Both the position numbers and the translations under genes were made by a program. This document shows, one piece after another, positions 7,933 to 13,292 of a stretch of DNA of 64,000 nt. How positions within the stretch are numbered: position 1 is the stretch's first letter; each line of letters opens with the position of its first letter. Location: assembly GCA_016872775.1 (NCBI GenBank), contig VGZA01000023.1:1-64000 (forward strand). Reading direction: 5' to 3'. Source of the DNA: Planctomycetota bacterium. Its GTDB lineage: Bacteria > Planctomycetota > Planctomycetia > Pirellulales > Pirellulaceae. The notes under the pieces are model-generated. The model had not been told where the DNA came from and ran no database searches. It was given only the letters and a program-made list of their open reading frames with translations.

Positions 7933-8607
7933 TCAAGAGCTGAGCAACTCTTGATCCAGGTGGGACACCGAATTGAAGTCGACCAGTTGTGGCGGACCGC
8001 TCGAAACATCCACGATCGTCACGGCCGTGTTCCAGATCCCGTTCCAGGGATCAGTGGGCCAATTACCGAGCCGGGCCAGTTCCTTCATCAGCAGCGACTT
8101 GAAGTCGGCATGCGTGATGAATGCCACGGCGCCCCCATCGCCATCGTGCAACTGGCAAATGCGCTGCCACAACCTGCGTGCCCGCGCACCGGCCGCTTCC
8201 GCCGATTCGTACTCCTTGCTGGCCCACCAACCGTCGTCGCCGATCGATTCCTCGACGCGATACCAGGGAAAGTGTCGTTCGATTTCATTGCGCGACATCC
8301 CTGGTCGGCCTTGATATAGCCACGGTTGGTATCCCGAGTAGCAACCGCCTTGCTCGTGCAGATCGACCCAGACTTCGGCGCTCAATTTCATATGCGCCCG
8401 CAGGTGCTCCGCGGTTTCCAGCGCCCGGCGGAACGGGCTGGTAATCAAATGCCGAATCTGGTGGCGAGCCTGTCGCGACTCGAAGTCCGCGGCGAGTGCC
8501 GCGGCCTGGCGATGTCCCAGGGGTGTTATCGCTGGATCCTCGACGCGGAGACGCTCGGGAAGTGAATTGTTCGCCGATTGGGCATGACGAATGAAGTACA
8601 ACCGCAT
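7933..8607 (-). CDS. Histidine phosphatase family protein (phosphoglycerate-mutase-like)
   Basis: 224 residues beginning MRLYFIRHAQSANN, so the catalytic RHxxxxxN motif (His8 of RHAQ) is at the extreme N-terminus as usual. Further landmarks are SPFRRALETAEHL and the second catalytic histidine in FITHADFKSLL near residue 170. The reading frame stays open upstream to 9009, but that part is antisense to the methyltransferase; the family start fixes the ATG at 8607. It lies 23 bp downstream of the methyltransferase gene on the same strand and is probably co-transcribed with it. Substrate (small phosphate ester or protein phosphate) cannot be told from sequence. Confidence 0.85.
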   Translation of the reverse strand: MRLYFIRHAQSANNSLPERLRVEDPAITPLGHRQAAALAADFESRQARHQIRHLITSPFRRALETAEHLRAHMKLSAEVWVDLHEQGGCYSGYQPWLYQGRPGMSRNEIERHFPWYRVEESIGDDGWWASKEYESAEAAGARARRLWQRICQLHDGDGGAVAFITHADFKSLLMKELARLGNWPTDPWNGIWNTAVTIVDVSSGPPQLVDFNSVSHLDQELLSS

Positions 8608-8630: not shown

Positions 8631-10364
8631 CTAAACCGGCTCGATTTCCCGTGCGGCCAGGTCGCGGAGATTCAGTCGGGGATTTCGCCTGGCGACTTCC
8701 AGCGACTGGTAAGCCATCAACGATCCGATCGACCCCTCCACGCGACAATAACTTACCAGGATCTCCTCGGAATACTTTTGCCATCTCGAACCGACTTTGG
8801 AAAACAGCAGTTCCCGCATCCGGCGCCCGAGATTGATCGACTGGCCGAGGTAGAGCGGGCATTGCGATTCCGCGCTTGCCAGCAGGTAGACCCCCGGGAA
8901 ATCGACCGCCTGTCCGGCGAGGACTTCCCGCAGAGGGACCGGCTCGGGGAGCGGCAGTCGGATGTTGCGCGTCGACAAGGCCTGCGCCCGTTTGCGAGCC
9001 CGATGGCACTCCTTCCGCAATTTCAGCGCGCCCCAGCGGTATTCCAACGAGGAGTACCCCGGTGCAAAGTCGCAGGCGATGCGGTCGAAATTTGCGGCCG
9101 AATTCGGATCGCAGAGGATCTCATCCAGACTTCCGGCACCGTTGTCGATCAGTTGCCGCCAGGCAAGTTCACTGGCATGGATAAAGGGGTCACAATGTTC
9201 CCATGTGAACTCCGTGCGCTTGCTGAAATCCAATCCGGACAACTTGCCTGCCTTGCGCATCGCGAACAGGTTACGATTCCACCAGCGAATGTCACCCGGC
9301 AGGCCACGCTTTTCGCAAGCGGCCTCGAACAGCGAATTCAACTGCGGATCGGCAACGACCCGGTCGATCGAGAACCCATCCTGAACCTGCCGAAACGCCG
9401 ACAGCAGCCCGTCGATGACGGTGCGTTTGGATCGCGATTCCCACGCCTCTACCGAGAGCTCCAGCACCTCGTCGTACGGGCTGGCGCCCTGGGTATTGCG
9501 CGGGCGTACGGTCGACGGCGCGCTGATCGTCGGCTCCACCGCCCCATCCAATTGGTCCCCCCGACAAACACGGGCCAACCGCTCGTCGCCGCGCTTTACG
9601 TACTCCGGCGACAATTCAAAGCCGATGAAACCCCGGCCCAGTTTCTTGGCCACAGCCAGGGTCGTGGCACTGCCGCTGAACGGATCCAGGACAACGTCGT
9701 CGGGATTGGAACAGCAGCGGATGATCCGCCCCAACAGTTGCTCAGGCATCTGGCAGCCATGGAAGCCGGCTCGTTCCTTAAAGGTTCCCGCCACGCGCGG
9801 AAAATACCAGGTATCCTCGTCGGGCGAAAACCGATCCGCAAGATCCTGCGGTCGCAGGATCCAAGTGTCGTCCGGCAATCGACCGATTGGGTTCGCGCGG
9901 CGATCGCCGTAAACGAGGAACCTCGCCGAAGGAATGCGCGTTTCAAGTTCCTCCGCTCGGAACGTGAACGTGTGCGGATCCTTGATGAAATAGAACAGGT
10001 GAGCGTGCGAGCGGCTGAATTTGGCCTTGCAATTCACGCCAAACGTGTAGTACCAGATCACCCAGCTGCGCGTCGTAAAACCGATCTCCTGGGCGGCGAC
10101 CTTCAGTTCCGCGGCATATTCATCGCCGATCGCCAGCCAGAAAGTCCCCGATGGCTTGAGCACGCGATGAACAGCCTTAATCCATTTTCGTGACCAGTCG
10201 AGGTAATCGTCGGTCTTGCGGCTATCGGTGTAAACGTCGTATTCGTAACCGATGTTAAACGGCGGATCGGCGAATGCCAGATCGACCGACCCTTCGGGCA
10301 GTTTCCGCATGCCCTCGATGCAGTCCTGCGCGTGAATGCGGCCACAAACTTCCTGCGAAATCAC
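8631..10364 (-). CDS. DNA methyltransferase (beta-class N6-A/N4-C) fused to GIY-YIG-like domain
   Basis: 577 residues. Residues 1-265 form a beta-class amino-methyltransferase: catalytic motif IV as DPPF (D33-F36) precedes the AdoMet motif I region DPFSGSATT (D227 on), followed by GFIGFELSPEYVKRG. Residues 300-460 match nothing I recognise and could hold target recognition. The C-terminus (about 489-565) has GIY-YIG features: GVYLL (491-495), LYLGQS (504-509), basic NLGRR (511-515) and a glutamate (E556) before NPRLN, the positions of the usual Tyr/Tyr/Arg/Glu set. The GTG start at 10364 was chosen because AGGAGG (10369-10374) lies 4 bases upstream; an in-frame upstream ATG (10574) would overlap the amidohydrolase and adds a low-complexity leader. 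No separate restriction gene is adjacent. Confidence 0.85.
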   Translation of the reverse strand: MISQEVCGRIHAQDCIEGMRKLPEGSVDLAFADPPFNIGYEYDVYTDSRKTDDYLDWSRKWIKAVHRVLKPSGTFWLAIGDEYAAELKVAAQEIGFTTRSWVIWYYTFGVNCKAKFSRSHAHLFYFIKDPHTFTFRAEELETRIPSARFLVYGDRRANPIGRLPDDTWILRPQDLADRFSPDEDTWYFPRVAGTFKERAGFHGCQMPEQLLGRIIRCCSNPDDVVLDPFSGSATTLAVAKKLGRGFIGFELSPEYVKRGDERLARVCRGDQLDGAVEPTISAPSTVRPRNTQGASPYDEVLELSVEAWESRSKRTVIDGLLSAFRQVQDGFSIDRVVADPQLNSLFEAACEKRGLPGDIRWWNRNLFAMRKAGKLSGLDFSKRTEFTWEHCDPFIHASELAWRQLIDNGAGSLDEILCDPNSAANFDRIACDFAPGYSSLEYRWGALKLRKECHRARKRAQALSTRNIRLPLPEPVPLREVLAGQAVDFPGVYLLASAESQCPLYLGQSINLGRRMRELLFSKVGSRWQKYSEEILVSYCRVEGSIGSLMAYQSLEVARRNPRLNLRDLAAREIEPV

Positions 10365-10374
10365 CGTTCCTCCT
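10362..10374 (-). promoter_or_regulatory. Strong Shine-Dalgarno deciding a GTG start
   Basis: A perfect AGGAGG (10374-10369 on the minus strand) is followed by AACG and GTG (10364-10362). It makes the methyltransferase start 70 codons downstream of the longest open frame and leaves about 150 bp between it and the amidohydrolase gene. Confidence 0.75.
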
Positions 10375-12305: not shown

Positions 12306-12480
12306 AAAAGTATCTCTCCAGGAAAATCCTCGGTTCTCCGTCGGCCGTTCCAAGTCACAGTGAGATCCGGTCGTCGCGCATCCCAAAGCGGCTCCGCGAG
12401 CGACCTGAATTGTGGCGTCCGCAATCCCACCCGTCGAGTTCCCGGGACGGAAGATTTTCAAGATTTCCATTCCACCTACT

Positions 12481-12549
12481 CGTACTCGTCCCATACTCCT
12501 ACTCCTATTCGTACTTGTACGAGTACGGGACGAGTATGGGACGAGTACG
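12481..12549. repeat. Long inverted repeat built on GTACTCGTCC / GGACGAGTAC
   Basis: CGTACTCGTCCCATACTC (12481-12498) is exactly complementary to GAGTATGGGACGAGTACG (12532-12549), giving an 18-bp perfect stem. The 33-base spacer and the right flank repeat the same GAGTACGGGACGAG / GGAACGAGTACGAG motif several times, so alternative foldings exist. The GTACTCGT word recurs at least eight times within 90 bases. Its role (terminator, protein-binding array, or selfish repeat) is unknown. Confidence 0.8.
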
Positions 12550-12682
12550 GAACGAGTACGAGGCGGGTAACACTACTCCTACTTGGACAGCAGCACTTTG
12601 CGGCGGATGCTCCAGTTCTTCCTGCCCTGAAGGGCAACACTGTGAAGCATTTTTTTGTGAATTGGGTAACGTTTCGCGCAGT

Positions 12683-12746
12683 ATTTACCCCAAAGGGTTT
12701 TTTCTGCCGCGCAGCCGGGAGTTGCCGGTATTCCGGCTACCCCCGG
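12683..12746 (-). repeat. Hairpin element, copy A (minus orientation)
   Basis: The hairpin has arms CCGGGAGTTGCCGG (12715-12728) and CCGGCTACCCCCGG (12733-12746) around a 4-base loop, followed on the minus strand by a CCCTTTGGGG mini-hairpin. Read on the minus strand it aligns over about 64 bp with copy B at 13046-13109, so the two form an inverted pair. Confidence 0.65.
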
Positions 12747-13045
12747 AGGACCGTCCCACACGACCCGCCGCCGGTCGAGCGCAACGGTCCATCGACACTC
12801 ATGGGACTGCCGAGACCACAACGGATGCGCCGTTGCGTCGTGGTTGCTTCACTGCACCGCATGGGTTGGTGGTGCAGTGGCAGTCCGTCGATGGGCCTTC
12901 CCGGCAAATCAACTCCGCTCACGGCGCACTGCCACTGGCACAGCACACCAACGTCGGTTCGATCGCCACGATTCCTCACCGTTTCGGTTTCGGTCTCGGC
13001 GACGTCGGTCGGTGCCGATGGGCCCGTGCGCTCGACCGAGTTGTA

Positions 13046-13109
13046 CCCAGGGTAGCCGGACTACCGGCAACCCTGGGCTACACTGCAGAACATCCCCTTC
13101 GGGGAACGA
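13046..13109 (+). repeat. Hairpin element, copy B (plus orientation)
   Basis: Arms CCCAGGGTAGCCGG (13046-13059) and CCGGCAACCCTGGG (13064-13077) with loop ACTA, one mismatch in 14 pairs, followed by GCAGAACATCCCCTTCGGGG. Same order of sub-hairpins as copy A in reverse orientation. CCCAGGGT-type hairpins are, to my knowledge, common intergenic repeats in planctomycete genomes. Confidence 0.65.
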
Positions 13110-13292
13110 GCCACTTTTTCGCGGTTCGACGCGGCTGGCGGCTCGACGGGCTGGCAGGGCGTTGCCGCTGGGCTGATTTGTCGTGCCTCTTCGGGGCGGG
13201 AACGGATCGTTACGTGCGACAGGATGAACGCTTACGGCAAACGGCTATCGCAAAGTGGCGCTGTCCAACGACTCGCACGCCTGCACGATAAT

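Follow-up and report, generated by a model that had tools for sequence, protein, structure and literature searches.

A probable orphan DNA methyltransferase with a GIY-YIG pseudonuclease tail in Planctomycetia

The gene located at 8631..10364 on the minus strand of the window, i.e. the whole 64,000-nucleotide stretch of planctomycete DNA analysed here, encodes a 577-aa protein in which a beta-class DNA methyltransferase is followed by a helical repeat domain and a degenerate GIY-YIG domain. As judged from sequence, it is best described as a real, conserved and unusual architecture, and not as a one-gene restriction enzyme. We regard it as probable that the protein is a solitary (orphan) DNA amino-methyltransferase equipped with a C-terminal pseudonuclease module; in some relatives, sister modules that look catalytically intact are encoded by genes translationally coupled to the methylase. 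The analysis documents a helical-repeat module that had escaped recognition, and a probable GIY-YIG pseudonuclease stably attached to a methylase. In the largely open-access literature surveyed on planctomycete methylomes, GIY-YIG proteins and restriction-modification, no description of the family was found.

The methylase gene and its surroundings

The 577-codon gene runs from a GTG start at 10364 to a stop codon at 8633-8631, and a Shine-Dalgarno AGGAGG (10369..10374, minus strand) is located 4 nt ahead of the start. The earlier note on this DNA had placed an open frame exactly here, and the frame is present, with DPPF, DPFSGSATT, GVYLL, LYLGQS, NLGRR and NPRLN all inside it. The plus strand of the interval carries a 471-codon open frame (8778-10193). 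The methylase gene is real, and conservation in 128 distinct fused modules excludes chance.

A histidine phosphatase gene (7933..8607, minus strand; Pfam PF00300) follows the methylase after 23 bp, and the flanking genes include neither a nuclease nor a specificity gene, as the note had reported. No homologue of the phosphatase, amidohydrolase or DHDPS-like gene that flank the methylase in the window adjoins it at 80 related loci, and a conserved operon with any of the three, found at 0/80 loci, is discarded; since the neighbourhood is not conserved, the histidine phosphatase is placed outside the system. No known Rfam RNA was found near the gene. PADLOC, queried with the window protein, returned among its best matches generic methyltransferase models only.

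Repeated DNA is present in the same window. Nested imperfect inverted repeats, with arms of 55, 29, 27 and 20 nt, fill the intergenic interval 12583-13268, and together form an imperfect palindrome of roughly 690 bp. Matching segments in the same genome amount to 53 (self-matches counted), are scattered on many contigs and are 70-100% identical; the palindrome is therefore a member of an abundant dispersed repeat family. An 11-bp unit, ACGAGTACGGG, is repeated in tandem (3.8 copies) at 12519-12560, and has inverted counterparts at 12479-12502.

An amino-methyltransferase joined to a two-domain tail

The methyltransferase domain spans residues 10-290 (9495..10337, minus strand), as delimited by PF01555, by PDB relatives and by the alignment of fused proteins. 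The Pfam scan matches PF01555 to residues 27-257 (E 1.9e-49), and motif IV, DPPF, at residues 33-36 precedes the SAM-binding motif I, DPFSGSATT, in the order typical of beta-class amino-methyltransferases, so that the class assigned in the note holds. For METHYLTRANSFERASE, the solved proteins closest to the methyltransferase domain are CcrM, M.BceJIV, MboIIA and RsrI; M.BceJIV is the top PDB match in one search and the second in another. The best PDB relatives, M.BceJIV, CcrM and MboIIA, are N6-adenine enzymes, and the methylated base is probably N6-adenine. A rotifer N4C enzyme is a close structural match too, and the window enzyme may methylate N4-cytosine. An alignment of 25 fused proteins has invariant residues, all of which the window protein retains, and its methyltransferase domain is expected to be active.

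Residues 278-312 (9429..9533, minus strand) form a predicted disordered linker (pLDDT < 50 in the full-length model). The pTM of the full-length model is 0.52, so that the relative arrangement of the domains is not fixed by it. A separate AlphaFold2 model of the tail, built on a profile of 65 homologous tails, reached a mean pLDDT of 94.5 and a pTM of 0.91. In this model residues 309-465 (8970..9440, minus strand) fold as an all-helical domain, with eight main helices predicted, arranged in two tandem repeats. Repeat 1 (residues 319-380, 9225..9410) and repeat 2 (residues 399-460, 8985..9170), both on the minus strand, align in register over 62 columns by HHalign (probability 97.2, E 3.6e-11). 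No PDB fold and no Pfam family matched the helical domain, which is a newly recognised module.

The predicted structure of residues 489-566 (8667..8900, minus strand) has the GIY-YIG fold, as the note had suggested. Foldseek matched the model to UvrC with probability 1.00 (TM 0.73 by target, E 0.012), and the family profile retrieved the UvrC GIY-YIG domain from the PDB at E 1.5e-11. Family profile and fold were needed because single-protein matches are weak: the window protein alone scored E 0.12 and 13.2 bits against the GIY-YIG family PF01541, below the Pfam cut-off of 22.6, and the other GIY-YIG signal in the single-protein Pfam and NCBIfam scans was of the Cho type, at 1.3e-4. A type IV methylation-dependent wH-GIY-YIG nuclease was considered and rejected, the middle region being all-helical with two repeats, and the GIY-YIG site incomplete.

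The GIY-YIG site lacks its catalytic glutamate

Alignments of fused homologues indicate that both catalytic Tyr positions are kept in the window protein (Y493, 8886..8888; Y505, 8850..8852; these and the following codons are on the minus strand), as is the catalytic Arg (R515, 8820..8822). The C-terminal Asn of the site is retained as well. What an active GIY-YIG nuclease has in addition, the metal-binding Glu, is missing. In the alignment to UvrC this residue lies nine residues ahead of the Pro in P-x-L/Y-N, and the corresponding residue of the window is Q553 (8706..8708). The earlier note had proposed a complete Tyr/Tyr/Arg/Glu set, of which the first three members stand. The Glu that it had chosen, E556 (8697..8699), lies six residues before the Pro of NPRLN, in a column filled by Leu in 65/80 fused relatives, and is rejected as the catalytic residue.

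The loss is systematic. In 49 fused relatives the Glu position is occupied by Q (23), K (9), R (7), W (5), A (2) or M (1), with 2 gaps, and at 80 named planctomycete loci by Q (65), R (8), K (4), A (1) or C (1), with 1 gap; the two samples overlap, and jointly include 128 distinct fused modules. Glu is found in 0/49 and 0/80 fused homologues, versus 14/14 complete copies of the solo nucleases encoded in tandem with the methylase in relatives. The note had taken homologues regularly deprived of the catalytic residues as contrary to its proposal, and for Glu this is what the homologues look like. Among the 80 fused proteins the first Tyr is kept in 76, the second in 70 and the Arg in 77. The position Arg+4, occupied in the window by L519 (8808..8810), is a His in 10/10 tandem solo nucleases from named loci, versus 11/80 fused proteins.

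In Eco29kI the same Arg+4 position is held by H108 (R104 + 4), and the E142A mutation abolishes cleavage, while specific binding to the site is retained; I-TevI E75A is inactive (PMC1952068). Since these published mutants are Glu-to-Ala changes, they suggest by extension that the Glu-to-Gln domain would be inactive; residual or altered activity may persist with Gln at 553. A type IIC single-chain restriction-modification enzyme was rejected as a candidate, as the predicted nuclease site has neither the Glu nor the Arg+4 His.

Solo modules and the coupled gene of relatives

Stand-alone modules have been found in three kinds, tandem, signal-peptide-type and HicB-type. A tandem solo module gene resides directly downstream of the fused methylase at 15 distinct related loci. 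At 10 named loci, the downstream gene overlaps the methylase stop as ATGA in seven cases and as TAATG in two, and starts 6 bp after it in one. The 15 tandem copies include the 14 complete ones mentioned above, all carrying Glu, and about 86% of the fused loci have no tandem partner. Distances among the 15 methylases correlate with those among the nucleases (Mantel r = 0.56, permutation p 0.0002), and distances among fused modules with those among solo modules (r 0.76, permutation p 0.0002), though shared species history contributes to the correlations, and the r figures include this contribution. Fused modules are not closer to their own partners than to others (0.356 vs 0.361), and recent duplication or gene conversion is therefore excluded. 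These findings suggest that methylase and coupled gene may act, in these relatives, as modification and restriction partners that are based on paralogous modules.

In the window genome no second module was found, the other weak match being UvrC, and the notion that a nuclease with the same module is encoded elsewhere in this genome was abandoned. With neither a flanking nuclease nor a second C-module in its own genome, the enzyme conforms to the definition of an orphan methyltransferase. A distant, unrelated nuclease may reside in the genome.

The remaining stand-alone modules are of diverse make. Six (L032, L036, L037, L038, L039 and L040) form one clade, have the full catalytic set including Glu, and lie behind apparent signal peptides, judged by eye; they are possibly exported nucleases. 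In five proteins (L031, L034, L035, L087 and L088) a ribbon-helix-helix domain of the HicB type, confirmed by Pfam scan in three of them, precedes the helical and GIY-YIG module; 4/5 of these fusions have no catalytic Glu, and Leu at its position. An 828-residue protein (L090:311-2794) combines a type I specificity domain (Methylase_S, 2.1e-31) with the helical and GIY-YIG module, and has Ala at the catalytic Glu position.

Origin and distribution of the tail

In the module tree a branch with support 100 separates 90/90 fused rows from 27/27 solo rows. The pattern fits a single fusion, with the Glu lost at or soon after the event. In the methylase tree tailless forms are interspersed; parsimony requires at least 9 changes, of which well-supported branches force 2, and the 15 loci with the coupled nuclease are scattered across the tree. 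The interspersed tailless methylases fit repeated loss of the tail. Replacement may have occurred instead, since some branches are weak and both forms coexist in one genome, G245 (contig 1, L185), which encodes the tailless core methylase along with a second, fused copy. Many orthologues do without the tail, so that the methylase does not depend on it. The C-termini of tailless methylases are short and rich in Lys/Arg, and one orthologue (L042:737-2716) has, in place of the module, a 367-residue Lys/Ala-rich C-terminus resembling histone H1. Such replacements hint that the job of the tail is DNA contact.

Median dN/dS values are 0.034 for the methylase, 0.040 for the helical domain and 0.093 for the GIY-YIG domain; the tail is therefore under purifying selection, and has been kept over a deep divergence, about 30-40% identity. 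The methylase matches at E < 1e-100 in 55/60 related genomes, normally once per genome, and qualifies as a lineage-wide planctomycete DNA methylase, present in about 90% of the sampled relatives; matches beyond the class are about 52-60% identical. The module is carried by about 45/147 genomes of the order (48 genomes at 1e-10, three of which are weak GIY-YIG-only matches at about 1e-11), and in a phylum-wide draw of 199 is confined to the same class. The labels of the 80 named matches are all those of Planctomycetota groups, or uninformative MAG titles. More than 100 planctomycete proteins share the order methylase, middle region and GIY-YIG fold.

Interpretation and alternative explanations

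In the model proposed, residues 10-290 would flip and methylate a base, and the flexible linker (about 278-312) would tether the helical two-repeat domain and the GIY-YIG-fold domain, the latter presumably disabled by Gln 553 in place of the metal-binding Glu and by Leu 519 in place of the Arg+4 His. As purifying selection persists and yet the Glu is absent, the most likely role of the tail is binding, to DNA or to a partner, and not cleavage. By analogy with the unrelated C-terminal domain of CcrM, it would most likely contact DNA beside the target and/or mediate oligomerisation. The tail would derive from a fusion that took place once, early in Planctomycetia. A module with an intact site would be supplied, in some relatives, by the translationally coupled gene that follows the methylase, and the two genes would make a probable modification-nuclease pair. 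Because the window genome has no such gene, the preferred reading of its enzyme is that of a solitary methylase whose tail is a pseudonuclease. Against the pseudonuclease reading stands the retention, in most fused proteins, of the two Tyr and of the Arg, residues that a mere scaffold would not all require.

The architecture described in the earlier note is correct; the functions attached to it, a one-gene restriction-modification or methylation-dependent nuclease, or a repair enzyme, are unsupported. A single-chain nuclease, in which the GIY-YIG domain would cut by means of Gln553 or E556 in place of Glu, could appeal to the fold, to both Tyr, to the Arg and to the C-terminal Asn. Yet it seems very improbable, as Glu is absent from every fused homologue, E556 is unconserved and the Arg+4 His is lost, Glu-to-Ala changes kill Eco29kI and I-TevI (PMC1952068), and the separate gene with an intact site found in relatives would be redundant. 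It is likewise unlikely that the tail is a decaying passenger left by a selfish GIY-YIG element, and deprived of current function. The known mobility of GIY-YIG domains (PMC1564403) and the repeated lack of the tail in orthologous methylases would suit a passenger; the strong purifying selection acting on both tail domains, the single origin, and the maintenance over the divergence reported above would not.

The coupled partner might alternatively be a repair nuclease that cooperates with the methylase, as Vsr does with Dcm, the tail recruiting either the partner or the Uvr machinery. Translational coupling, and UvrC as the closest solved fold, are in line with such a role, which we nonetheless hold to be improbable: no repair gene family is prominent among the recurrent neighbours at the 80 related loci, and the deamination lesion repaired by Vsr is not generated by N6-adenine methylation. 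A two-gene restriction-modification remnant extends the orphan reading rather than opposing it. The tail would once have paired with the coupled nuclease, through a hetero-oligomer or shared target recognition, and loss of the nuclease would have left the methylase as an epigenetic or protective orphan. The scattering of the coupled loci over the methylase tree and both distance correlations speak for this history, which we consider a serious possibility, though somewhat short of an even chance: correlation may also come from shared species history, most fused loci are partnerless, the restriction role of the pair is putative, and the methylase, in contrast to mobile restriction-modification genes, is present almost universally as a core gene. 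Along the same lines, and again at somewhat less than an even chance, it is tentatively proposed that Planctomycetia possess a modification-restriction architecture not described before, with methylase and nuclease set on paralogous copies of a single DNA-recognition module (helical repeats and GIY-YIG). An inactivated copy would be fused to the methylase and an active one encoded in the overlapping gene downstream, the methylase having been repeatedly retained alone, as in the window. If methylase and nuclease do share such modules, this would bear on the way in which modification and restriction maintain a common specificity, and on the degeneration of restriction systems into orphan methylases.

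Comparison with known systems

Among the closest known systems is CcrM, the Caulobacter methylase specific for GANTC, a beta-class, lineage-conserved N6-adenine orphan whose C-terminal domain is attached through a linker and acts as a DNA-binding domain (PMC6787082). The CcrM tail is a SAND-like domain of about 88 residues, whereas the window tail consists of helical repeats and a GIY-YIG fold; the window enzyme is not known to have a cell-cycle role. M.BceJIV, the Burkholderia N6-adenine methyltransferase that best matches the catalytic domain in the PDB, has no C-terminal module. The N-terminal GIY-YIG domain of UvrC, the closest solved fold of residues 489-566, shares the Tyr, Tyr, Arg and Asn positions, but differs in the catalytic Glu, which is Gln in the window, and in the flanking domains.

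The Eco29kI and Hpy188I systems place a methylase beside a GIY-YIG nuclease, an arrangement that the coupled pairs of planctomycete relatives share. The likeness seen is one of arrangement, and the planctomycete methylase itself bears a paralogous, apparently inactive nuclease module. The earlier note had named Eco29kI and Hpy188I as GIY-YIG restriction enzymes separate from their methylases; the general claim that GIY-YIG domains and methylases are otherwise always separate would be too strong. Slx1-like GIY-YIG domains fused to NPPY-methyltransferases have been described in Lactobacillales by Dunin-Horkawicz et al., 2006 (PMC1564403), and a methyltransferase-GIY-YIG fusion as such is therefore not new. 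These COG4123 fusions are natural, and also exist as adjacent genes, but involve another methyltransferase family and another GIY-YIG subfamily, and the paper on them mentions no helical repeat domain (PMC1564403). The engineered RM.Eco29kI fusion demonstrates that a methylase and a GIY-YIG nuclease in a single chain can be bifunctional; that protein is artificial, and its active site is intact (PMC3039593).
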